DNA from: Desulfatibacillum sp.
Lineage (GTDB): Bacteria > Desulfobacterota > Desulfobacteria > Desulfobacterales > SpSt-501
Length of the DNA stretch: 64,000 nucleotides
Direction of reading: 5' to 3'
Assembly (NCBI GenBank): GCA_020725555.1
Contig: DYEU01000034.1
Coordinates: forward strand, 62,001-126,000
In this document: in pieces, positions 4,360 through 17,221 of the stretch
Position numbering within the stretch: position 1 is the first letter of the stretch
How the letters are laid out: each line of letters begins with the position of its first letter
Program-made: the position numbers and the translations under genes
The notes under the pieces: generated by a model
The model's input: the letters and a program-made list of their open reading frames with translations, nothing else
Database searches by the model: none
What the model was told of the DNA's origin: nothing

Positions 4360-5499
4360 ATGAAGCGTCGTCTCGTTGCCGCAGCCGGGTTGCTCTGCCT
4401 GGTGCTGGCCGGGGTGTTGCCGCCGGCGGCCGGCGCCCAGACGAAGGAGTTCGTGGCGAACATTTTCTTCCCCGACAAGCACCCCATCGCGAAGTACAGC
4501 TATGCGGACTGGGCGGTCGATCTCGAAAAGGCCTCCGGGGGGCGCCTGAAGGCCAAGGTCTTCTACGGGTCCTCGCTCCTCGAACCCCGCGCCGGTCTTT
4601 CCGGCGTGCGCGACGGGATCGCCCATATCGGGCACCACGCGGCGCTCTACACCCCCTCGGAGCTTCCCGAATCGAACGTCTTGAACGAGCTCAGCTTCGC
4701 CATCACCGATCCCCTGGTCGCCATGGCCGCGGTCACCGAGTTCGAGATGACCGATCCCCAGATGCAGGCCCAGTGGAAAAAGGCCGGGGTCGTCTTCGCG
4801 GGCGGCTACAGCACGCCGCAATACGTGATGATGTGCTCCAAGCCCGTGCGCAACCTCGAGGAGATCAAGGGCAAGCGGCTGCGCACGGCGGGGGCTTCGG
4901 TTTCGCGCTGGGTGCAGACCGTCGGCGCCGTGGCCGTGAACATCCCCTCCACGGAGATGTACACCGGCCTGGAGAAGGGCAGCCTCGATTGCGCCACGAA
5001 CGTGGTGAGCGACTTGAAGTCCCGCAGCCTCTGGGACGTGGCCAAGCACACGACGATGGCCTCCCTGGGGATGTACTACGCCGGCCCGAACTGGGCGGTG
5101 AACCCCGGGTTCTGGCAGGGACTGAGCCCGGCCGACCGGCGCCTGCTCTTCCAGGTGAACGCCCAGGCCATGGCCAACCTCTACGTGGGCTACCAGGAGG
5201 CGATCGCCGAGGCCCTGGCCGAGGCGCGGCAGCACGGCGTCTCCTTTTACGAGCCCGGCGAGGACCTGAAGGCCTCGATCCGCTCCTTCATCAAGACGAG
5301 CTTCGAGGACATCTACAGCCTGGCCCGGGAGAAATACAAGATTTCCCAGCCGGAAGCGCTGGTCGACCGCTTCATGAAAACGGTCGCGAAATGGGAAACG
5401 CGCTTCGCCCAGACCGACCGCAAGGACAGCCGGGCGATCGGCAAGATCCTCCGCGAGGAGCTCTTTGACCGCATCGACGCGGCGGCCTACGGCAAATGA
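4360..5499 (+). CDS. dctP: TRAP transporter substrate-binding protein DctP (system 1)
   Basis: This 379-residue periplasmic receptor starts at ATG 4360, behind a strong AGGAGG. It has a Sec signal peptide (MKRRL, then a Leu/Val/Ala core, with cleavage expected after AGA near residue 26). The DctP fold is recognisable, including the segment EEIKGKRLRTAGA, whose second Arg corresponds to the conserved arginine that pairs with the carboxylate of TRAP ligands. The receptor delivers its ligand to the DctQM permease, driven by an ion gradient. The stop overlaps the start of dctQ (ATGA), so the genes are coupled. Ligands are usually organic acids; this one is unknown. Confidence 0.92.
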   Translation: MKRRLVAAAGLLCLVLAGVLPPAAGAQTKEFVANIFFPDKHPIAKYSYADWAVDLEKASGGRLKAKVFYGSSLLEPRAGLSGVRDGIAHIGHHAALYTPSELPESNVLNELSFAITDPLVAMAAVTEFEMTDPQMQAQWKKAGVVFAGGYSTPQYVMMCSKPVRNLEEIKGKRLRTAGASVSRWVQTVGAVAVNIPSTEMYTGLEKGSLDCATNVVSDLKSRSLWDVAKHTTMASLGMYYAGPNWAVNPGFWQGLSPADRRLLFQVNAQAMANLYVGYQEAIAEALAEARQHGVSFYEPGEDLKASIRSFIKTSFEDIYSLAREKYKISQPEALVDRFMKTVAKWETRFAQTDRKDSRAIGKILREELFDRIDAAAYGK

Positions 5500-6050
5500 C
5501 GGGCTCCGCGACCGCGAGCGGGGAAAGGGCCTCGTCGATGGGCGGGCGGATCATCCGGGGCGTCAGCCGGCTGTTCGAACACCTCTCGAGCCTGTTCCTG
5601 CTGCTCATGATGCTTCACGTCACGGCCGACGTGTTCATGAAATATTTCTTCAACGCCCCGATCGAGGCCACCATCGAGACCGTGACCTATTACTACATGA
5701 TCGGGATCGTCTTTCTCCCCCTCGCCGCGGTCGAGCTGCGCAGCGAGCACATCGTCGTCGATCTCTTCGTCAAGCGCTTCCCCCCCCGCGTCCAGCTTGC
5801 CTGCTACGGCTTCGCCTGCCTCTGCGGGATGCTCTATTTCGGCATCCTGACGCGGCAGACGTTCCTCGACGCCTTGCGGGCCACCGCCGGCCGGGAGACC
5901 GTCATGGCCAACTTCCTGTTCTACGTCTGGCCGAGCCGCTGGGCGCTTCCGATCGGCATGGGCTGCATGGTGCTCGCCCTGGGGTGGAACCTCCTGCGCG
6001 CGCTTCGATCCGGGCGGCCGCTCGAGCCCGCGAAGGCGGAGGAGGAGTGA
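5496..6050 (+). CDS. dctQ: TRAP transporter small permease DctQ (system 1)
   Basis: This 184-residue membrane protein has four predicted transmembrane helices, at roughly residues 25-50, 55-80, 98-120 and 135-165. The DctQ hallmark F-N-A-P follows the first helix (YFFNAPIEATIET). DctQ forms the small membrane subunit that packs on DctM. It overlaps dctP by four bases and ends one base before the dctM start, so stoichiometric expression is likely. The N-terminal 15 residues are hydrophilic. Confidence 0.9.
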   Translation: MTGSATASGERASSMGGRIIRGVSRLFEHLSSLFLLLMMLHVTADVFMKYFFNAPIEATIETVTYYYMIGIVFLPLAAVELRSEHIVVDLFVKRFPPRVQLACYGFACLCGMLYFGILTRQTFLDALRATAGRETVMANFLFYVWPSRWALPIGMGCMVLALGWNLLRALRSGRPLEPAKAEEE

Positions 6051-6051
6051 G

Positions 6052-7356
6052 ATGGATTCCGCCGCGATCGGCACCGCCGGGATTCTGATCGCGCTCCTGC
6101 TGATGGGCCTGCGCGTCCCGGTCGCCGTCGCCATGGGGCTGGTGTCGTTTTTCGGGCTCGTCGTGATGACCACCCCCCGGGCCGCCTGGGGCATGATCAG
6201 CGCCGTCGCCTTCGATTTCATCGGCAACTGGTCCTTCACGGCCGTGCCCATGTTCCTGCTCATGGGCTACCTCTGCACCGCCTCCGGCATGACCCGGACC
6301 CTCTTCCGCTGCATGCGGATCCTGCTGGCGCGCCTGCCGGGGGGGCTCGCCGTGACCGGGGTCGGCGCCTGCGCGCTCTTCGCCGCGGCCTCGGGCTCGA
6401 GCGTGGCCACGGCCTCGGCGCTGGCGCGGATCGCGGTGCCCGAGATGCTCCGCCATCGCTATCACCCCGGCCTCGCCACCGGCGTGATCGCGGCCTCGGG
6501 GACCCTCGGTTCGCTCATTCCGCCCAGCGTGCTCATGATCCTCTATGCGGTCTACGCCGAGGTTTCGGTCGGCAAACAGTTCATGGCCGGGTTCATCCCG
6601 GGCATCGTCTCGGCGTTGATCTACATGGCGATGATCGTGATCCGGGTCACGATCGACCCGCGGCTCGCCCCGCCCCTGGAGGAGCGCGTCTCCTGGGGGG
6701 CGGTCTGGGCCTCGCTCCGCGACATCTGGCCGCTGCCGACGCTGATCGTCTTCGTCCTGGGCGGCATTTTCTTCGGCTGGTTCAGCCCGACCGAGGCGGG
6801 GGCCGTCGGCGCCTTCCTCGCCCTGGCGATGGCCCTGCTGCGCGGATCGCTTGACCGCCGCGCCTTTCTCCGGGCGCTCGGGCAGACCGCAAGCAGCACG
6901 ACGAGCATCTTCATCATCCTCGTCGGCACGATGCTGATCACGAAGTTCCTGGCCCTCTCCGGGCTGCCGACCCGGCTTTCCGCGATGCTGCTGGGGGTGA
7001 GCACGTCCCCCCTCTGGGTCATCTTCGCCGTGAGCGTGCTCTACGTGATCCTGGGCATGTTCGTCGAGACCATGGGGCTCCTGCTCCTCACGTTGCCTCT
7101 CATCCTTCCCGTCGCGAACGCCGCCGGGATCGACCTCATCTGGTTCGGCATCATCCTCATCAAGCTTCTCGAAATCAGCCTGATCACCCCGCCGGTGGGG
7201 CTGAACGTCTACGTCATCAAAGGCGCCGTGGGGCCGCTCGTCCCGCTGGATGAGATTTTCCGCGGGGTGGGCTGGTTTCTCGTCATGGACGTGCTGACCC
7301 TGGGGATCCTCGTCGCCTTTCCGGGCTTGAGTCTCTACCTGCCCGGACTGATGTGA
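6052..7356 (+). CDS. dctM: TRAP transporter large permease DctM (system 1)
   Basis: The 434-residue transport subunit starts at ATG 6052, two bases after the dctQ stop. It is hydrophobic throughout, with about 11-12 transmembrane segments. The DctM family features are visible: the GxxTASALARIAVPEM-type helix, GTLGSLIPPSVLMILY, the FSPTEAGAVGAF segment, and the closing LITPPVGLNVYV motif. The protein catalyses Na+- or H+-coupled movement of the ligand handed over by DctP. The next gene is another dctP, so two complete TRAP systems sit back to back. Confidence 0.92.
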   Translation: MDSAAIGTAGILIALLLMGLRVPVAVAMGLVSFFGLVVMTTPRAAWGMISAVAFDFIGNWSFTAVPMFLLMGYLCTASGMTRTLFRCMRILLARLPGGLAVTGVGACALFAAASGSSVATASALARIAVPEMLRHRYHPGLATGVIAASGTLGSLIPPSVLMILYAVYAEVSVGKQFMAGFIPGIVSALIYMAMIVIRVTIDPRLAPPLEERVSWGAVWASLRDIWPLPTLIVFVLGGIFFGWFSPTEAGAVGAFLALAMALLRGSLDRRAFLRALGQTASSTTSIFIILVGTMLITKFLALSGLPTRLSAMLLGVSTSPLWVIFAVSVLYVILGMFVETMGLLLLTLPLILPVANAAGIDLIWFGIILIKLLEISLITPPVGLNVYVIKGAVGPLVPLDEIFRGVGWFLVMDVLTLGILVAFPGLSLYLPGLM

Positions 7357-7404
7357 ACGGCGCTGGGTGCCGTGAACGGCCAACCCGCAACGCAGGAGGA
7401 AACC

Positions 7405-8460
7405 ATGTGCAGGAAGGTCTGGAAGAACGGATGGTTCTGGCTCGCCGTCCCCCTCGCCCTGTCGGTGTTCATCCCGTCCCTCGGGCCCGGGGCGCAGGCG
7501 CAGACGGCGGTGATCAAGTGGCGCATGCAGTCGATCGACCCGCCGTCCCTGATCGGGCCGCAGATCACGCAGAAGGATTTCTGCGACCGGATCCGCAAGA
7601 TGTCGAACGGCCGGCTCGACATCACGCTCTACACGGCGGGGCAGCTCGCCCCTTCGCTCGAACTGGTGGACAGCCTGGCCAAGGGCAGCGTGGACATCGC
7701 CTACACGAGTTCCGTCTACTATACCGGGATCGTGCCGGAGGCGAACATCGACCTGGTGACGCTCCCGCCCAACATGCTGAAAACCCTCCAGGACGCGCTC
7801 CAGGTCTACTGGTACCTGGGGGTCGACGAGCTGATGCGCGAGGGCTACCGCCAGCACGGGGTCTACTACGTGGGAAGCCTCTTCTTCACGGAACCGAACA
7901 CCTTCTGGAGCAAGAAGCCGATCCAGAAGGTCGAGGACCTGAAAGGCTTCAAAGTCCGCGGCTACGGCTACTACGCGAAGACGCTCGCCAAGCTGGGCGC
8001 ATCGCCGACCTTCATCCCCCACGAGGAAGTCTACACGGCGCTCGCCCAAGGGGTGATCGACGGCTCCATGACCGCCGGCTCCTACTACAAGCGCTTCAAG
8101 TACTACGAGGTCGCGCCGAACTACTACCTCCCCGGCTTTGCGCCCGTCTGGTCGATGTGCATCCTCGCCTCGCAGAAATCCTGGGAGGCCCTGCCCGAGG
8201 ATCTGAAGGCCATCGTCCAGGAGGCCTTCAAGGTCTTCGCCATCGATCACCAGCAGCGGACCTGGTGGGAGCATGAGCAGATGCTGAAAGAGCTGCCGAA
8301 CCTCAAGGCGACGCTCATCACCTGGCCGGATGCGGAGGTGGCCAAGCTGCGCAGGGCGGGGCTCGAGTTCCTTCCCGAGATCGCCAAAAAGGGGGATCGC
8401 TGCGCCAAGGGCCTGGAGATCATCCGCTCCTACATGAAGACCCAGGGGTACATCGACTGA
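7405..8460 (+). CDS. dctP: TRAP transporter substrate-binding protein DctP (system 2)
   Basis: This 351-residue periplasmic receptor starts at ATG 7405, chosen because AGGAGG lies five bases upstream. An upstream in-frame start at 7372 would add 11 hydrophilic residues before the signal peptide. The signal peptide runs to about residue 33 (core FWLAVPLALSVFIP, cleavage after AQA). The ligand-binding arginine is in VEDLKGFKVRGYG. It shares the fold with the system 1 receptor but differs clearly in sequence and length, so the two probably bind different ligands. A strong hairpin separates it from its dctQ. Confidence 0.92.
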   Translation: MCRKVWKNGWFWLAVPLALSVFIPSLGPGAQAQTAVIKWRMQSIDPPSLIGPQITQKDFCDRIRKMSNGRLDITLYTAGQLAPSLELVDSLAKGSVDIAYTSSVYYTGIVPEANIDLVTLPPNMLKTLQDALQVYWYLGVDELMREGYRQHGVYYVGSLFFTEPNTFWSKKPIQKVEDLKGFKVRGYGYYAKTLAKLGASPTFIPHEEVYTALAQGVIDGSMTAGSYYKRFKYYEVAPNYYLPGFAPVWSMCILASQKSWEALPEDLKAIVQEAFKVFAIDHQQRTWWEHEQMLKELPNLKATLITWPDAEVAKLRRAGLEFLPEIAKKGDRCAKGLEIIRSYMKTQGYID

Positions 8461-8473
8461 ACCCTCTCCCCGT

Positions 8474-8516
8474 CGTCCCCGCCCCGCGGCGCCCCGGCCC
8501 GGCGGAGGCGGGGACG
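8474..8516 (+). other. Intercistronic stem-loop between dctP and dctQ of TRAP system 2
   Basis: A perfect 10-base-pair GC-rich stem pairs CGTCCCCGCC (8474-8483) with GGCGGGGACG (8507-8516) in the 75-base gap between the receptor and small permease genes. No T tract follows, so it is not a standard intrinsic terminator. Stem-loops at this place in TRAP operons are thought to protect the upstream mRNA or reduce read-through, giving more receptor than permease. TRAP system 1 has no gap here at all. The stem is seen; its role is inferred. Confidence 0.55.
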
Positions 8517-8535
8517 GCCCTCTGCGGAGCCGGCC

Positions 8536-9075
8536 GTGAACGCCCTGCTGCGGTTTTTTTCCGCCGTCGACCGCCTGAACGACGTCGTGGGCAAGGCGGT
8601 CTCGTTTCTGGTCTATCCCCTGATCGCGATCCTGGTCTGGGAGGTGACCCTGCGCTACCTGTTCAACGCCCCGACCATCTGGGCTCACGAGCTGAGCGCG
8701 CTCCTTTACGCGGTCTTCTTTCTTCTCGGCGGCGCCTACACCCTGCGCTGGAACGCGCACATCAGCGTCGACGTCCTCTCCGCCCGGCTTCCCCCCCGGG
8801 CGCGGGCGATCCTGGATCTCGCGACGTGGCTTCTCTTCTATGTCTTCTGCGGCGTGATGCTCTGGCAGGGGGGGCAGGCGGCCTGGAAGTCCTTTCTGAG
8901 GATGGAGCGGGCCTCGACCGTCTGGGAGCCCTACGTCTGGCCCGTGAAATGCGTCATCCCCCTCGCGGCCCTCCTCATGCTGCTGCAGGGATTCACGAAA
9001 ACCGCCAAAGACCTCCACCTCGCCCTGACCGGCCGGCAGTGGCCGGATGCGCCGCAGGAGGGTCCCCCCGCGTGA
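8536..9075 (+). CDS. dctQ: TRAP transporter small permease DctQ (system 2)
   Basis: This 179-residue membrane protein starts at GTG 8536, behind a weak GCGGAG. Four hydrophobic segments are seen, with the DctQ-typical RYLFNAPTIWAHE after the first helix (compare RY-x-F-N in the family) and an ALLYAVFFLLGGAYTL second helix. It would form the small subunit of the second TRAP permease. Its TGA overlaps the GTG start of dctM, so translation is coupled. Confidence 0.9.
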   Translation: MNALLRFFSAVDRLNDVVGKAVSFLVYPLIAILVWEVTLRYLFNAPTIWAHELSALLYAVFFLLGGAYTLRWNAHISVDVLSARLPPRARAILDLATWLLFYVFCGVMLWQGGQAAWKSFLRMERASTVWEPYVWPVKCVIPLAALLMLLQGFTKTAKDLHLALTGRQWPDAPQEGPPA

Positions 9076-10388
9076 GCGTCGAAGCCGTCACCCTGCTCAT
9101 GTTCCTCACCATGCTGCTGCTCCTCGCGAGCGGGCTTCCGGTCGTCTTCGTCCTGGGGGGCTCCGCGCTCGTGTTCGGCTACACCGTCTGGGGGCCCGCC
9201 TCGCTGAACGTGGTCGTCGCCGCGGCGAGCGATCTCTTGCGGGCCAACCTCCTGGTCGCGGTGCCTCTGTTCGTGTTCATGGCCTACATGCTGGAAAAAT
9301 CGGGGATCGCCGAAGACCTCTACGGGGCCATGCACCGGTGGATGGGGGGGCTGAGGGGGGGGCTCGCCGCGGGGACGGTGCTCGCCTGCACGCTGGTGGC
9401 CGCGATGAGCGGGATCAGCACCACCGGGGTCCTGATGATGGGGATCATCGGGCTGCCGGCGATGCTGCGGCGCGGCTACGACCGCCGCCTCGCCATGGGA
9501 TCCATCATGGCCGGGGGGGCGCTCGGGCCGCTCATCCCGCCGAGCATCGTGATGATCATCTACTCGCTGCTTTCCGGCCAATCCATCGGCAAGCTCTTCG
9601 TCGGCGGCATCCTGCCGGGGCTGCTCCTCTCCGGCCTCTTCATCACCTACATTCTGATCCGATGTTTCCTGCGGCCGGACCTCGGCCCGCCCCTTCCCCC
9701 GCAGGAGCGGGCCGGCTGGAAGGAAAAGGCGGCCGCGCTGAAAGGGGTTCTCCTCCCCGGGCTGATCGTGCTCGGTGTCCTGGGGTCGCTGTTCGTCGGC
9801 ATCGCCACCCCCACCGAGGCCGCCTCCGTGGGAGCCCTGGGGGCGATCCTCTCGGCGGCCGTCTACCGCAGGCTCTCCCCGGCCGTCCTCAAGGCGGTCG
9901 CCTTCCAGAGCCTCAAGACCGTCTCCATGGTGATGTGGGTCATCTTCGGCGCGGGATGCTTTGCGACCATCTACCAGGGAATCGGGGCCTCGGAGTTCAT
10001 CCAGAACCTCATCAAGGGCTGGCCGGTCGGCACCTGGGTCGTGCTTCTCCTGATCCAGGCGACCTGGATCTTTCTCGGCTGCCTGATGGACGCGATTTCG
10101 ATCCTGATGGTCACGGCGCCGGTTTTCATCCCCGTCGCCCAGTTCCTGGGGGTGGATCTCCTGTGGTTCGGCGTCCTGTATGCGGTCAACACGGAGATGG
10201 GCTATCTGACCCCGCCCTTCGGCGTCAATCTGTTCGTCATGCGCGGCATCACCCAGGAGCTGGGAATTTCCACCAAGGAGATCTACCTCGCCGCCGCCCC
10301 GTTCATCGGCATCCAGTTCCTGGGGTTGGTCCTGGTCATGGTTTTTCCGGGGATCATCACTTGGCTTCCCGGCCTCTTGCTGAAATAA
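9072..10388 (+). CDS. dctM: TRAP transporter large permease DctM (system 2)
   Basis: This 438-residue, strongly hydrophobic protein starts at GTG 9072, overlapping the dctQ stop (GTGA). The open frame continues upstream, but that part is the shadow of dctQ. DctM signatures include MSGISTTGVLMMGIIGLPAM, GALGPLIPPSIVMIIY, TPTEAASVGALGA and the final YLTPPFGVNLFVMRG. It has about 12 predicted transmembrane helices and would be the ion-coupled transport subunit of system 2. The segment around 9344-9362 holds runs of seven and eight G in frame. The next gene, xdhC, follows after 42 bases. Confidence 0.92.
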   Translation: MSVEAVTLLMFLTMLLLLASGLPVVFVLGGSALVFGYTVWGPASLNVVVAAASDLLRANLLVAVPLFVFMAYMLEKSGIAEDLYGAMHRWMGGLRGGLAAGTVLACTLVAAMSGISTTGVLMMGIIGLPAMLRRGYDRRLAMGSIMAGGALGPLIPPSIVMIIYSLLSGQSIGKLFVGGILPGLLLSGLFITYILIRCFLRPDLGPPLPPQERAGWKEKAAALKGVLLPGLIVLGVLGSLFVGIATPTEAASVGALGAILSAAVYRRLSPAVLKAVAFQSLKTVSMVMWVIFGAGCFATIYQGIGASEFIQNLIKGWPVGTWVVLLLIQATWIFLGCLMDAISILMVTAPVFIPVAQFLGVDLLWFGVLYAVNTEMGYLTPPFGVNLFVMRGITQELGISTKEIYLAAAPFIGIQFLGLVLVMVFPGIITWLPGLLLK

Positions 10389-10430
10389 TCCCCCCAGACC
10401 CGGAAGATCCCCTGCAGAGCGAGCGTCGCC

Positions 10431-11513
10431 TTGAACTCGAGCCCGGCCGGATTGTACGAAACGCTGGTTTCCATCCTGGAGGGCGGCGAAACGGCGGTCC
10501 TGGCGAGAATCCTCGCCGTTCGCGAACCGGGGCCGCGGCGGCCGGGGGCGGCGCTGCTCGTGACCGGCCGGGGGCGGCTTAGAGGGACCGTCGGGGGTGG
10601 ACCGCTCGAGGAGGCCGTCCGCGCGCAGGCGGGTCGGGTTCTCCGGGAAGGCAGGACGGCGCTGCTGCGCTACGAGGCAAGGAGCGCCCAAGACTCCGGC
10701 TGCGGCGGGGAGGCCCAGGTCTTCCTCGAGCCCCTGTTCCCCGAAGACGAGGGGGTGCTGCGCCTCTTGCGCGCGAGAAACGAGCTCGTGTGCCGCGGCG
10801 GCGCGGGCCTATTCGGAACCCGCATTCTCGAGGGGGTCCCGCGGCCGCCGCGCTTTCTTATCACCGCCGCAGGCGGGCTGACGTGCTCGGCAGGGGCGCT
10901 TCCCGAGGAGCTGCGGCCGGCGCTCGCGGCGTGCCTGCCGCCGGCTGCGCCCCGCCTGGAGAGGCTTCCCGCCGCAGGCGGCGCCTGGCTCGTCTTCCTC
11001 GAGCCGGTTGTCCCCGGGCCGCTTCTTGTGCTCCTCGGCGCGGGGCACATCGCCGCCGCCCTCGCCCCTTGGGCGCGGCGCGTGGGGTTTCGCGTGCGGG
11101 TCGCCGGCGTGCGCCCCGGGGATGCGGATCCCGCGCGCTTTCCCGACGCCGAGCGCGTGGCCGACGGCGGGGCTGCGGCGCTGCTCGCGGAACTTGCGCC
11201 GGGCGAGCGGCCGTTCATTCTCGTCGCGGGGCCCTCCCACGAGGCGGACCGCGAGCTCCTGGCCGCGGCGCTGCAGGCGGATGCCGCCTATGTCGGCATG
11301 GTGGGAAGCCGGCGGAAACGCGAGGCGATCTTCCAGGCCCTGCGGCGCCAGGGGGTCGCCGAGGAAGCGCTCGCCCGCGTCCACTGCCCGGCCGGGCTTC
11401 CGATCGGCGCCGAAACCCCCGAGGAGATCGCCGTGAGCATCGTTGCCCAACTCGTTCTCGAGCGCTCGCGCGGGGAACCCTCGCCCCGGCCGGAAGAGAC
11501 CCCGCCGCGATGA
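10431..11513 (+). CDS. xdhC: XdhC/CoxI-family molybdenum hydroxylase maturation protein
   Basis: The protein has 360 residues and probably starts at TTG 10431; no ATG or GTG fits the alignment expectation for the N-terminus (LYETLVSILEGGETAVLARI). The N-terminal XdhC domain shows RGRLRGTVGGGPLEEAV and SGCGGEAQVFLEP. The C-terminal Rossmann domain starts at LLVLLGAGHIAAALAPW and ends with the family's YVGMVGSRRKREAIF. XdhC proteins bind sulfurated molybdenum cofactor and insert it into xanthine-dehydrogenase-type enzymes. The Cys usual after GGG (GGGCVE) is Pro here. No molybdenum hydroxylase is in the window. Its stop overlaps the MFS start (ATGA). Confidence 0.85.
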   Translation: MNSSPAGLYETLVSILEGGETAVLARILAVREPGPRRPGAALLVTGRGRLRGTVGGGPLEEAVRAQAGRVLREGRTALLRYEARSAQDSGCGGEAQVFLEPLFPEDEGVLRLLRARNELVCRGGAGLFGTRILEGVPRPPRFLITAAGGLTCSAGALPEELRPALAACLPPAAPRLERLPAAGGAWLVFLEPVVPGPLLVLLGAGHIAAALAPWARRVGFRVRVAGVRPGDADPARFPDAERVADGGAAALLAELAPGERPFILVAGPSHEADRELLAAALQADAAYVGMVGSRRKREAIFQALRRQGVAEEALARVHCPAGLPIGAETPEEIAVSIVAQLVLERSRGEPSPRPEETPPR

Positions 11514-12716: not shown

Positions 12717-13934
12717 TCAGTCGAGGACGAGCAGCTCCGCCACGAGTTCCCAGAGGTACTGCACCTCGAGCCCCGGCATGCCGCAGGCGTCGCGGAGGGC
12801 TTCGAGCTGGGCGTGGCAGCTGTGGCAGGGGACGACGACCGTCTCGGCGCCGGTTGCGCGGATCTGGTCCATCTTGCGGCGGCCGTAGTGGATGCGCTCC
12901 TCGTTGTACCCCGTGACGAGCGTTCCCCCCCCGCCGCCGCAGCAGGTCTGGAAGGTGCGGTTGGGGTAAAGATCCACCCAGTCGCTCACGCAGCGGTCGA
13001 GGATCCAGCGGGGTTCCTCGAAGAAGCCGTGTCCGAAGCGCCGCTCGGCCTTGCGGCCGTAGTTGCAAGGGTCGTGGTAGGTGACGCGCCGGCGGTGGCG
13101 CGTGGGGTCGAGGCGGATGCGGCCCTCGCGCAGGTATTCGATCAGGAGGTCGAAGACCGTGACGAAGCGGAAGCGCCGCAGCGCCTCGGGGTAGTGCCGT
13201 TCGAACCCGGACCGGGTCGCGAGGTAGGCGTGCCCTCATTCGGGCCAAAGGAGGGTGTCGATCTCGAGCGCCTCCATCTGCCGCAGGATGCGGCCCGCCA
13301 TGACCTTCATCGCCTCGTCGTCGCCGGTGAAGTAGCCCCAGCTCGTTCCCTCCCAGTGTTCCGAGGAAACCGTCCAGCGCTCGCCGGCGGCGTGGAAGAT
13401 CTTCCACCAGTGCTTCAGGTCCTCGGTGTGGGTGTTGACGAGCTTGTTGTGGATCGTGGTGAGGAGCCGCGCCCCCTTGCGGTCGACGGCCACCTCGAAG
13501 CCCTCGAACCCCGCCTCCTCGCGGATTTCGGAGGCGACGTCCTCGAGGATGAAGAGGTAGTCCTCCCGGGGGAGGCGGAGGTTGTTTCCGGTCTCGAGCG
13601 CCGCGGCGAGCCCCTTGTGCAGGATCCCCGGGACGCGGTCGCGCTCGCGGCGCGAGCGCACGCGGCGCACGAGGTCGGCGATCTCGACCCCCATCGGGCA
13701 CAGGGCCTCGCACTTGCCGCAGAGCGTGCAGATCCAGGGCCAGCGGGCCTCGACCAGCGGCTCGATCCGCCCCAGGAAAGCGAGCCGGACGACCTTGCGC
13801 GGGTCGAAGCCGTCGATCCCGGCGACCGGGCAGGCGGCGGAGCACATCCCGCAGGCCATGCACCGTTCCTGGAAAAAGCTCCAGTCCGCGGGGCAGGGCG
13901 GATCGAAATCGAGCGCATCTTCCTTCGGGCTCAT
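12717..13934 (-). CDS. HdrD/DsrK-like iron-sulfur protein, probable selenoprotein (UGA read through as Sec)
   Basis: The minus-strand frame from ATG 13934 to 12717 encodes 405 residues if the single in-frame TGA at 13238-13236 (residue 233) is read as selenocysteine. The N-terminus carries two [4Fe-4S] ferredoxin motifs (CMACGMCSAACP and CTLCGKCEALCP). The C-terminal half contains a CCG domain: DPCNYGRK, TCCGGGGG and VVPCHSCHAQL. The TGA lies in E-TGA-GHAY, where HdrD, DsrK and related proteins have ECGHAY, and reading continues for 172 family-like residues with no other defect. A hairpin follows 16 bases later (separate entry). Such proteins pass electrons to disulfides or similar acceptors. 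It starts one base after the stop of the QmoB-like gene. The alternative is a nonsense mutation or sequencing error. Confidence 0.85.
13202..13219 (-). promoter_or_regulatory. Candidate bacterial SECIS element downstream of the in-frame UGA
   Basis: On the coding (minus) strand, 16 bases after the TGA, CGACCC (13219-13214) can pair with GGGT-T-CG (13208-13202), leaving one bulged T and the five-base loop GGTCC (13213-13209). The loop has the adjacent G and T needed in known SelB-binding hairpins, and resembles the GGUCU of the E. coli fdhF element. The distance to the UGA is within the usual range for bacterial SECIS. The stem is short (six pairs) and the bulged U is on the 3' side rather than the 5' side, so the fit is good but not perfect. 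Confidence 0.6.
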
Positions 13935-13935
13935 C

Positions 13936-15510
13936 TCAGGCTTCCTTTCGCGTCGTGGCCTCTTCCAGGGCCTCCGCCAGGCGGGCGATGGCGGCCGCGG
14001 CCTCGCCGGGCATGTTCGCGGCGAGCGTCCCCCAGGCGATGCGGCCGCCGCCCAGGCCGGCCCGCTCGAGGAAGGCGCGCGTTTCCTCGGCCCGCCGCCC
14101 GGCGAGGAGGTTTCCGTGCCGGGAATGGCAGTTCCCCTCGTGGCAGGTGAGAACGAGAACGCCGTCCGCCCCGCGGGAAAACGCCGTGCGGATCACCTCC
14201 GGCGCAAGTGCGCCCGCGCAGGGGAGCTCGACCACCCGCAGCGCGGCCGGCAGGGGGAGACCGGCCGCGCGCGCCTCCCGGAGCGCGGGGGCCGCCGAGC
14301 GGGAACAGGCGAAGACGCTGATCCGCGGCGCGCCCGCCGGCGCCGTCTCCGGGGGGGGATCGAGGAGCCGCGAAAGCCCGGGGCGGTCGAGCCCCTCGAG
14401 GCGGATCGCCTCGCGAGGGCATTCGGCGGCGCAGACGCCGCAGCGCTCGCAGGCCGGGGGGAGAACCCGCGGCCGCTCCCCCTCGAGCGCGATCGCCCGG
14501 TAGGGGCAAAGCCGCAGGCAGGTGAGGCAGCGGATGCAGCGCCCCGGCTCGATCGCGGCGGCTGCCTGCGGGTCGACCTCCCGGCCGAGGCTCTCGAGGA
14601 CCGCCAGGGCCGCGTTGGCCGCCTCGAGCTCCGGGTCGGACCCCGCAAGGCGGCCGGGGCCGGCGACGACGACCCCGCGGCGGTTGGTGAAGACAGGCAG
14701 GCGGTGGACGTTTTCCGACTGCAGAAAGCCGCCGGGGTCCCGCTCGAGCCCGAGGACCGCCGCGATCTCCTCGGCCGCCGCGGGCGGGCAGGCGGCCTCC
14801 TCGGCGACGACGACGTCGGCGGCGAGGCCGAAAGGTTCGCCGGTTGCGGGATCGGTGAAGCGGATCTCGATTCTCCCGTCGGGGAGCGGCCGGAAGGCGG
14901 GCCGGGTGCGTTCGAACTTGAAGAAACGTACCCCGGCCGAGCGCGCGCGGTGGGCGAGCGCCTCGAGCCCTTCGCCGGCCACTTTGAGGTTGCCGCAGAG
15001 AATGATCGCATGGGCGCTGCGCCGGGACTCGAGCTCGAGGGCGAAGCCCATCACCCGGCCGGAGAGGTCGGGGCGGCCTTCGCGCACGAGCCCGTCGAGA
15101 AAGACGACGACCGGGAGGGGCGCCCCCTCCGGCTGCGGGGGAAAGGCGTCCGTGCGAAACCGGGAGAGGCCTTGCAGCGCGGGTAGGGCGGCCAGGCCGG
15201 GATCGGGGACCAGGGGGAGCGTCTCTTCCCGGCAGGCGACGACGACGGCCTGGACCCGCCGCACCAGCCGCTCCGTCCCGCGCGCCAGGCGGATCTCGAA
15301 ATCCCCCGCCGCCCCGCGGCAGGAGCGAAGCCTCGTCCCGGGAAGCGCTTCGAGCGGGGCCGCGGCCGGGGCGGCCCGGAAACCCGGGGGCGGGGAGAGC
15401 CCCGGGTCGGGGGCGGACATCGCGACCGGGACGCCCGCCGCGGTGAGCAGCTCCGCGACCCGCCAGGCGCAGCGGGAATCCCCCAGGAGGAGCACCCCTT
15501 GCGGCCTCAT
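13936..15510 (-). CDS. QmoB/HdrA-like protein with ferredoxin and C-terminal MvhD domain
   Basis: This 524-residue protein starts at ATG 15510, overlapping the stop of the QmoA-like gene (ATGA). An N-terminal HdrA-like region (residues 1-310) is divergent: the expected GxGxxG nucleotide loop reads LLGDSRCAWRVAELL. Two [4Fe-4S] motifs follow (CIRCLTCLRLCP and CERCGVCAAECP, about residues 330-375). The last 130 residues are an MvhD-type domain (VFACSRSAAPAL, VELPCAGAL, LTCHEGNCHSRHGN), in which the second Cys of the first CxxC is Ser. The HdrA-ferredoxin-MvhD order matches QmoB, which is longer. The likely role is electron transfer between the QmoA-like flavoprotein and the HdrD-like selenoprotein encoded next. 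Confidence 0.8.
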   Translation of the reverse strand: MRPQGVLLLGDSRCAWRVAELLTAAGVPVAMSAPDPGLSPPPGFRAAPAAAPLEALPGTRLRSCRGAAGDFEIRLARGTERLVRRVQAVVVACREETLPLVPDPGLAALPALQGLSRFRTDAFPPQPEGAPLPVVVFLDGLVREGRPDLSGRVMGFALELESRRSAHAIILCGNLKVAGEGLEALAHRARSAGVRFFKFERTRPAFRPLPDGRIEIRFTDPATGEPFGLAADVVVAEEAACPPAAAEEIAAVLGLERDPGGFLQSENVHRLPVFTNRRGVVVAGPGRLAGSDPELEAANAALAVLESLGREVDPQAAAAIEPGRCIRCLTCLRLCPYRAIALEGERPRVLPPACERCGVCAAECPREAIRLEGLDRPGLSRLLDPPPETAPAGAPRISVFACSRSAAPALREARAAGLPLPAALRVVELPCAGALAPEVIRTAFSRGADGVLVLTCHEGNCHSRHGNLLAGRRAEETRAFLERAGLGGGRIAWGTLAANMPGEAAAAIARLAEALEEATTRKEA

Positions 15511-16652
15511 CGTCCGCCCTCCCGTCGCGGGGGGGCGGGCTGCGCCCCGGAAGCGGCGGCCGCCTTGGGGACGGGGTCGAACGCCGGGTCGGCTCGGGGC
15601 CCTTCCCACCCCAGGGCCGCGAGCAGGCGGCGGGCGGCGCGGCGGCTGTCGGCGATCGCCTCGGCGATCGTCATCGGCCGGCGCACGGAACCGGCCGCGA
15701 ACACCCGGTCGCCTTCCTCGGCCGCGAAACCGAAGCTGTCGCGCGGGAGCCCGAGGGGCGCCAGCGTCTCCTCGAGATCGGCCGGGGGCTGCATCCCGGC
15801 CGAGAGGACCACGAGATCGAAGGCCTCCTCGCGGCTCATGCGGCCGGCGTCGTCGAACCAGGTGAGCCGGATCCCCCCGTCCGCGGCGCCGAGGGCCTCG
15901 CCGGGCACGGCGCGGATGAGCCGCAGGCCCCGGCGGCATTCCTCGAGGAAGGCGTCCGGCGCCCGGCCGACGCTCTGGAGGTCGATGTAGAAGACGGTGA
16001 TCTCGGTTTCCGGGTGCAGGTGCCGGATCTTGCGGGCCGCGCGCAAGGCGGCCGCGCAGCAGAAGGCGGAGCACCAGAGGTGCCCGATTTGGGCGTTCCG
16101 GCTGCCGACGCACTGGATGAAGGCGACGCGGCCGGGGACCCGGCCGTCGGAGGGCCGGGTCAGGCGCCCCTCGGCCCGCAGCCGGTCTTCGAGCTCGAGG
16201 TTGGTGAGGACGTTGGCGAACACGCCCCAGCCGAGCGGCCGTTCCGCGGGCGAAAAGGCGGAGAAGCCGGTCGCGACAAAGACCGCCGCCGCCTCCTTAG
16301 CCGGGGCGCCGGGGCCCGGGCCGCAGGCGGGATCAAGCTCGAAGGAAAAGGCCCCGCCCCGGCGCCGGATGCGGGCCGAGGCGGAGAGATGGACCGTGAC
16401 CTGCGGCATCGCCCGCACCGCCTGGAGGGCGGCTTCGAGGAGGCAGGCCCCGCAGTGGACGCAGCCGCTGGTCGCCTTGCAGGAAAGCCGCGCCGCGTGC
16501 CCGCCGAGCCGTGCGGCGCGCTCGACGAGGGACACCGCGAGCCCGCAGCGGGCGAACACGGCCGCGGCCGTGAGGCCGGCCACCCCGCCGCCCAGGACGA
16601 GAACCCGGGGAGGGGAGCCGGCAGCCGGGGGCGATGGGGCCGGTCGGCTCAT
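15507..16652 (-). CDS. QmoA/HdrA-like FAD-dependent oxidoreductase
   Basis: This 381-residue flavoprotein starts at ATG 16652, overlapping the stop of the isochorismatase-like gene (ATGA). The FAD-binding loop VLVLGGGVAGLTAAAVFA is at residues 17-34. A Cys cluster follows in CKATSGCVHCGACLLEAAL. The HdrA-family block is clear: FIQCVGSRNAQ, then WCSAFCCAAALRAARKI and VFYIDLQSVG. Length and architecture (no ferredoxin domains) fit QmoA rather than full HdrA. Such subunits bifurcate or relay electrons with partner iron-sulfur proteins, here the two downstream gene products. The C-terminus is Pro/Ala-rich. Confidence 0.85.
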   Translation of the reverse strand: MSRPAPSPPAAGSPPRVLVLGGGVAGLTAAAVFARCGLAVSLVERAARLGGHAARLSCKATSGCVHCGACLLEAALQAVRAMPQVTVHLSASARIRRRGGAFSFELDPACGPGPGAPAKEAAAVFVATGFSAFSPAERPLGWGVFANVLTNLELEDRLRAEGRLTRPSDGRVPGRVAFIQCVGSRNAQIGHLWCSAFCCAAALRAARKIRHLHPETEITVFYIDLQSVGRAPDAFLEECRRGLRLIRAVPGEALGAADGGIRLTWFDDAGRMSREEAFDLVVLSAGMQPPADLEETLAPLGLPRDSFGFAAEEGDRVFAAGSVRRPMTIAEAIADSRRAARRLLAALGWEGPRADPAFDPVPKAAAASGAQPAPPRREGGR

Positions 16653-17221
16653 TTGACGATCCGGGCGATTTCCTTGAACACCGCCCCCTCGGCGACGCGC
16701 AGGAGCTCGAAGAGTGCGGTTTCCACGCTGGTCACCCCGGCGCCGGCGTCGCGGCATTTTTCCAGGCCGATCGCCCTGTCCGCCGGGTTGCGCGAGGAGC
16801 AGGCGTCGGCGACGACCTCCACGCGCCAGCCCTCGGCGAGAAGCCCGCAGGCGGTCTGGTAGACGCAGACGTGGGTTTCGATGCCGCACAGGAGCGCGCT
16901 CCGTCGCCCGGTGTCGCGCAGGGCGGCGCCGAAGGCCTCGCAGCCGAGGCAGCCGAAGCTCGTTTTCGGGATCGGGCGGACGCCCTCGAGCAGGCGGGCG
17001 ATCTCGGGCACGGTCGGGCCGAGGCCCTGCGGGTTCTGCTCGGTGACGAGGAGGGGGAGGCCGAGGGCCTTCGCCCCCGCGATCAGCCGGCGGGCGCGGT
17101 CAAGCAGCGTCTCGCGGTCGGGCATCGCGGCCACGAGCCGCTCCTGCAGGTCGATCACGACGAGGAGGCTGTCCTCTCGTTTCAGCATGGCCGGGGCGTC
17201 CTTGCTCCGTAGGTGGCGCAT
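16649..17221 (-). CDS. Isochorismatase-like cysteine hydrolase, first gene of the redox operon
   Basis: The protein has 190 residues and starts at ATG 17221 behind AAAGGAAG; a start at 17188 (MLKREDS) is possible. The cysteine hydrolase triad is visible: Asp in [10 protein letters not shown], Lys in [11 protein letters not shown], and the nucleophilic Cys in [15 protein letters not shown]. Family members hydrolyse amides, imides or vinyl ethers, and many have unknown substrates; YcaC-like hydrolases of this size are common. The gene overlaps the QmoA-like gene by four bases, so it belongs to the same transcript. Its relation to Hdr-type electron transfer is not evident. A divergent promoter region of about 125 bases separates it from the ABC ATPase gene. 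Confidence 0.88.

Follow-up and report, generated by a model that had tools for sequence, protein, structure and literature searches.

An iron-sulfur protein gene with an in-frame TGA

The window analysed here, a stretch of 64,000 nucleotides from Desulfatibacillum sp. (contig DYEU01000034.1), carries on its minus strand a frame of 406 codons (13934-12717) that stays open once a TGA at 13238-13236 is read through. This triplet, codon 233 in the context ...LLWPE-U-GHAYLAT..., is the only internal stop in the frame and the point where a plain ORF caller terminates the gene, and the 172 codons beyond it lead to a terminal TGA (12719-12717) at the same end point as in the homologues. The first-pass annotation of this DNA had placed a single TGA at the Cys of an ECGHAY motif, followed by 172 in-frame codons keeping DPCNYGRK, CCGGGGG and PCHSCH, and all of these features were recovered in the frame. 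With the TGA read through, the gene (12717..13934, minus strand) would encode a selenocysteine (Sec)-containing HdrD-like (HdrC+HdrB-type) iron-sulfur protein of 405 residues. Its HdrC-like 2x[4Fe-4S] ferredoxin domain (13698..13862, minus strand; Cys 25, 28, 31, 35, 69, 72, 75 and 79) was detected through Pfam Fer4_8 and Fer4_17 and through HdrC matches with E~1e-18 (profile A1), and its cysteines are kept in practically all homologues aligning there. In Pfam terms, this Fer4 dicluster (Fer4_8) spans residues 23-83 and a CCG domain residues 284-377 (3.7e-13), with the TGA falling between the two.

The gene lies at the end of a compact series on the same strand. An isochorismatase-family hydrolase gene (16649..17188; PF00857, 2.8e-30) overlaps the start of HA1 (15507..16652; HdrA2, 2.5e-52), which encodes an HdrA-like FAD protein of QmoA-like size and domains; HA1 in turn overlaps the start of HA2 (13936..15510; FlpD, 4.7e-28; HdrA2, 1.7e-42), encoding an HdrA-like protein with 2x[4Fe-4S] and a C-terminal FlpD/MvhD domain in a QmoB-like architecture, and the Sec gene follows directly after HA2. 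Of the 66 loci of the window clade (see below), 57 have the HdrA-like cluster ahead of the Sec gene, several of the others being cut by contig ends, and the isochorismatase-family gene was found only in the closely related loci L001-L004. The three-gene operon is conserved in bacteria of sulfate-reducing type and also occurs in the cultured Desulfosarcina alkanivorans (locus L041). A motif scan of the window-clade loci revealed no hydrogenase genes. The Sec protein probably forms a soluble complex with HA1 and HA2, in which it would be the terminal subunit, of HdrC+HdrB type.

The two flavoproteins were also considered as possible carriers of Sec, and both candidates were rejected. Stop marks in the HA1 alignments fall at gene ends, and the position equivalent to the U of a CxxU motif in the FlpD domain of HA2 is occupied by Ser, not by Cys or Sec, in 54 of 54 orthologues (CxxS at residues 402-405 of HA2), the FlpD of some related loci having a CxxU with an in-frame TGA. 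On the plus strand, past the 3' end of the operon, positions 4360-11513 of the window encode an XdhC-family protein and two sets of TRAP transporter genes. The XdhC-family protein matches best an aldehyde oxidoreductase maturation factor, its 228 bits falling short of the 350 set as the equivalog cut-off.

Evidence for decoding of the TGA as selenocysteine

The same codon is a TGA (13236..13238) in 80 of the 80 best relatives. These sequences, identified on genome contigs with 50-90% identity, belong to many independent metagenome-assembled genomes and isolates, mostly of Desulfobacterales and other Desulfobacterota and, by record title, some Syntrophobacterales. Since the tblastn query had Cys at position 233, any bias of the search ran against TGA. 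When homologues from further genomes were added to these relatives, a set of 185 distinct sequences showed TGA in 140 cases, Cys in 45 and no other residue, so that the alignment of homologues proposed in the first-pass annotation leaves Cys and Sec as the sole occupants of the column. Moreover, codon 233 is the sole internal stop in every TGA form, internal stops being absent from the Cys forms, and the E-U-G-H motif around the codon (residues 232-235; 13230..13241, minus strand) is kept without exception in the 140 Sec forms, His235 included.

The machinery for Sec insertion, for which the first-pass annotation had advised a search, is complete in the host genome: a tRNA-Sec with anticodon UCA (ARAGORN: tca; C33:22572-22665) accompanies SelB on C15, SelA on C20 and SelD on C18, all three above curated cut-offs. 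The host SelD is a selenoprotein candidate itself, with one in-frame TGA (L098, G000:C18:22871-23794). SelB was detected in 79 of the 80 genomes with a close homologue, the remaining one (G327, 740 contigs) having the TGA form and no detected SelB, and also in 353 of the 395 genomes of a phylum sample (89%), a background frequency at which the co-occurrence of SelB discriminates little.

In the RNA, a bacterial SECIS-like hairpin with a G-rich apical loop extends from +20 to +34, counting from the T of the TGA (13204..13218, minus strand). The early report of such a hairpin was right as to its existence, and it proved to be Sec-specific, although the core stem begins 17 nt past the TGA and not 16. 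Folding was evaluated against synonymous-codon shuffles that preserve the protein and the codon usage of the gene. From +9 to +48, the folding energy gave a mean z of -1.49 for the 140 Sec forms versus +0.02 for the 45 Cys forms (Mann-Whitney p 2e-13, a value that overstates independence and is no true probability, the sequences being related), the signal being strongest in 33-nt windows starting from +9 to +15 and absent at +24. Pairing at the core positions, +20/+33 through +24/+29, reaches 81% of cells in Sec forms against 43% in Cys forms, and sliding the partner lowers the pairing in Sec forms to 15-65%; pairs +20/+33 and +24/+29 also exceed column shuffles, and a GG in the apical loop occurs in 130 of 139 Sec forms versus 14 of 45 Cys forms. 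An RNAalifold consensus over all Sec rows retains two pairs only (+22/+31 and +23/+30), in part because the register of the stem varies, and in the minimum-energy fold of the window's own sequence the register is shifted by one base. Bacterial SECIS elements are diverse, and the lack of any Rfam match at gathering score within the window is therefore no argument against a SECIS. The hairpin behaves as an element under selection in Sec and not in Cys homologues, as fits a bacterial SECIS.

There is accordingly little room for doubt, on these comparative grounds, that TGA233 would act as a Sec codon and that the gene would encode a selenoprotein. The end called at 13236 by a plain ORF caller is what one would expect of a true stop, be it in a decaying pseudogene, through a sequencing error or in a truncated protein of 232 residues; such a reading is nevertheless highly improbable, as the same TGA recurs across many genomes with no other stops in the frame, the downstream motifs are invariant, and both the Sec machinery and a Sec-specific RNA structure are present. 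Reading of the TGA as another residue such as Trp, through a variant genetic code or nonspecific suppression, has the open frame alone in its favour and is scarcely credible given Cys in 45 of 45 non-TGA forms, a tRNA-Sec with anticodon UCA in the genome, and a TGA that also terminates the gene where homologues end.

Place among known families and Hdr-type systems

The Sec inference of the first-pass annotation was right, but it amounts to the rediscovery of a known selenoprotein family. As early as 2006, the survey of Zhang et al. included Fe-S oxidoreductase (GlpC) among its selenoprotein families, with the operon context glpC-hdrA-frhD-frhG-frhA (PMC1794560); the 2009 genome paper of Desulfobacterium autotrophicum HRM2 described a Sec-containing HdrD4 (PMC2702500), and a Sec Fe-S oxidoreductase has been reported from a marine deltaproteobacterium (PMC8318568). 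The GlpC-like Fe-S oxidoreductase Sec family (PTHR43551) has also been reviewed (PMC9312934), and a 2026 review lists the motif UGH in the class 'predicted with high confidence' (PMC13188914). The novelty implied at first for a Sec at this position in HdrD/GlpC-type proteins was consequently overstated (PMC1794560, PMC2702500, PMC13188914). With its U-G-H motif in a COG0247/GlpC-like Fe-S oxidoreductase, the window protein very probably belongs to this UGH family, with which it shares an origin in Deltaproteobacteria/Desulfobacterota and a linkage to hdrA/frhD-type genes, and by description it also resembles HdrD4 of HRM2, a soluble HdrC+HdrB-type fusion reported with Sec. A literature search for DsrK together with selenocysteine found no paper.

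In the tree of homologues, the window clade, with a support of 98, comprises 25 rows that all carry Sec. It is nested in a larger family A with a support of 100, whose 90 rows consist of 68 Sec and 22 Cys forms, and which is adjoined by a family B (31 rows, 17 Sec and 14 Cys). Neither family includes the other Cys rows, among them those of HmcF/TmcB type. The distribution of residues requires 10 Sec/Cys changes, and well-supported branches make no fewer than 8 of these unavoidable. Some other members of family A adjoin MvhA-type hydrogenase genes with DPU (mostly) or DPC motifs, in keeping with the published glpC-hdrA-frhD-frhG-frhA context, whereas in the window subclade the operon is of the HA1-HA2-Sec type, with a pair of HdrA-like flavoproteins and no hydrogenase. 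It is this all-Sec subclade, its operon and the mechanism proposed below that have been less described so far, the operon context and the mapping of ligands being what the present analysis adds. The host genome has two more Sec copies, both of family B (C10:91064-92194 and C12:137019-138152). Elsewhere, a family-B Sec protein, HA1, HA2 and a family-A Sec protein follow each other consecutively (L021:1825-7161), so that one flavoprotein pair lies between two Sec HdrD-like subunits, and at another locus (L123:4825-9900) a family-B Sec gene and HdrA-like genes lie beside an ORF whose start, judged by eye, is MetF-like (methylenetetrahydrofolate reductase).

The description of the product as an HdrD/DsrK-like iron-sulfur protein stands as regards fold and motifs, but its scores lie far under the NCBIfam curated cut-offs of the named families (HmcF, 177 bits against 750; TmcB, 159 against 735; DsrK, 141 against 400), and membership in any of the three was rejected. 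DsrK, HmcF and TmcB have the same domain order and one complete CCG motif, with Cys-Gly-His at the Sec position of HmcF/TmcB-type homologues; they are, however, Cys-containing subunits of membrane complexes and not partners of HdrA-like flavoproteins. The Qmo system offers another parallel, as QmoABC also combines an HdrA-like protein, an HdrA-like protein with FlpD and an HdrC-like module, but the window operon has no QmoC-type membrane subunit. Membership in Qmo was likewise rejected: the host genome has a separate Qmo locus, with QmoC on a different contig (C12:282069-283169), and the 30-39% identity of HA1 with the HdrA-like genes of that locus does not exceed its similarity to other HdrA paralogues.

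Cluster ligands and a possible role of the selenol

An AlphaFold2 model built with 71 homologues reached a pLDDT of 91.7, and its top matches among solved structures were EtfD, LutA, HdrB and HdrC. The CCG domain (12804..13085, minus strand), when aligned with HdrB and EtfD, presents five presumed ligands of a noncubane [4Fe-4S] cluster, Cys290, 331, 332, 370 and 373, which are invariant in all 140 Sec forms, Cys370 and Cys373 being also kept in 44 of 44 aligned Cys forms. In EtfD, a noncubane cluster is held by Cys637/672/673/709/712 and His583, and a linear [3Fe-4S] cluster by Cys503/538/581/584 (PMC13083937). Profile alignments set the E-U-G-H motif against Thr580-Cys581-Pro582-His583 of EtfD, so that U233 corresponds to Cys581 and His235 to His583, and Trp187-Thr188 against Cys538-Thr539. 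Of the four ligands of the second cluster, the Sec is the only one still in place, the other three having no counterpart (Trp187 stands at the position of Cys538 and Ala236 at that of Cys584). We infer one noncubane [4Fe-4S] cluster on Cys290/331/332/370/373, possibly with His235 as a further ligand, and Sec233 would lie in the putative active site of the protein. HdrB and HdrC of HdrABC-MvhAGD share with the window system the HdrC-like ferredoxin, the HdrB-like fold and the HdrA-like and FlpD partner modules. In HdrB, however, both CCG motifs are complete and there are two noncubane clusters, whereas in the window protein the C-terminal motif alone is complete and U233 is the only N-terminal ligand retained.

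The conservation of all five noncubane cysteines, the retention of U233 alone among the linear-cluster ligands and the invariance of EUGH led us to propose a selenol beside a single noncubane cluster. UGA233 would be decoded as Sec through SelB and tRNA-Sec with the help of the SECIS hairpin just downstream, and the protein would exchange electrons with the HdrA-like flavins along a path running from the two N-terminal cubane clusters to the one noncubane [4Fe-4S] cluster. The selenol of Sec233, sited where HdrB and EtfD have their second noncubane or linear cluster, could then cleave, jointly with the noncubane cluster, a disulfide or a related S-S/persulfide substrate, with Fe capturing one half and Sec taking up the other as a selenenyl sulfide; the substrates to consider first would be a small-thiol disulfide and a DsrC-type trisulfide. 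That Sec and a single noncubane cluster form a disulfide-cleaving site is a tentative proposal, and with equal reserve the single selenol may be thought to replace functionally one of the two noncubane clusters of heterodisulfide reductase, in a site fed by a hydrogenase-free, QmoAB-like flavoprotein pair. If true, this would define a distinct soluble complex of Desulfobacterota, possibly electron-bifurcating or -confurcating.

A somewhat less likely alternative accepts Sec233 as real and makes it a cluster ligand or a structural residue in a pure electron-transfer subunit instead of a catalytic selenol, for instance by coordinating a linear [3Fe-4S]-type or modified cluster or by tuning the noncubane one. 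In its favour, the aligned Cys581 of EtfD ligates the linear cluster (D1), and His583, whose counterpart His235 is present in all Sec forms, ligates the noncubane cluster (D2), an arrangement that makes EtfD non-catalytic. Against it, the D1 ligands Cys503, Cys538 and Cys584 lack counterparts, and with three of four ligands missing a D1-type cluster can hardly form; moreover, the frequent exchange between Sec and Cys fits a redox or nucleophilic role.

The catalytic selenol beside the noncubane cluster, as drawn from the EUGH motif, the EtfD/HdrB ligand mapping and the three-gene operon, would provide a testable enzyme model for a vague 'Fe-S oxidoreductase', listed among selenoproteins for twenty years with neither a function nor a mechanism assigned. 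In this regard, the natural Sec/Cys pairs occurring in one fold offer a probe of the role of selenium beside a noncubane iron-sulfur cluster. Within family A, a Cys subfamily (L170, L174, L117, L179 and relatives) has DCGG in place of E(U/C)GH, with loss of the conserved His and, in most members, a further Cys seven residues on, and its sequence suggests that it possibly has a different function.
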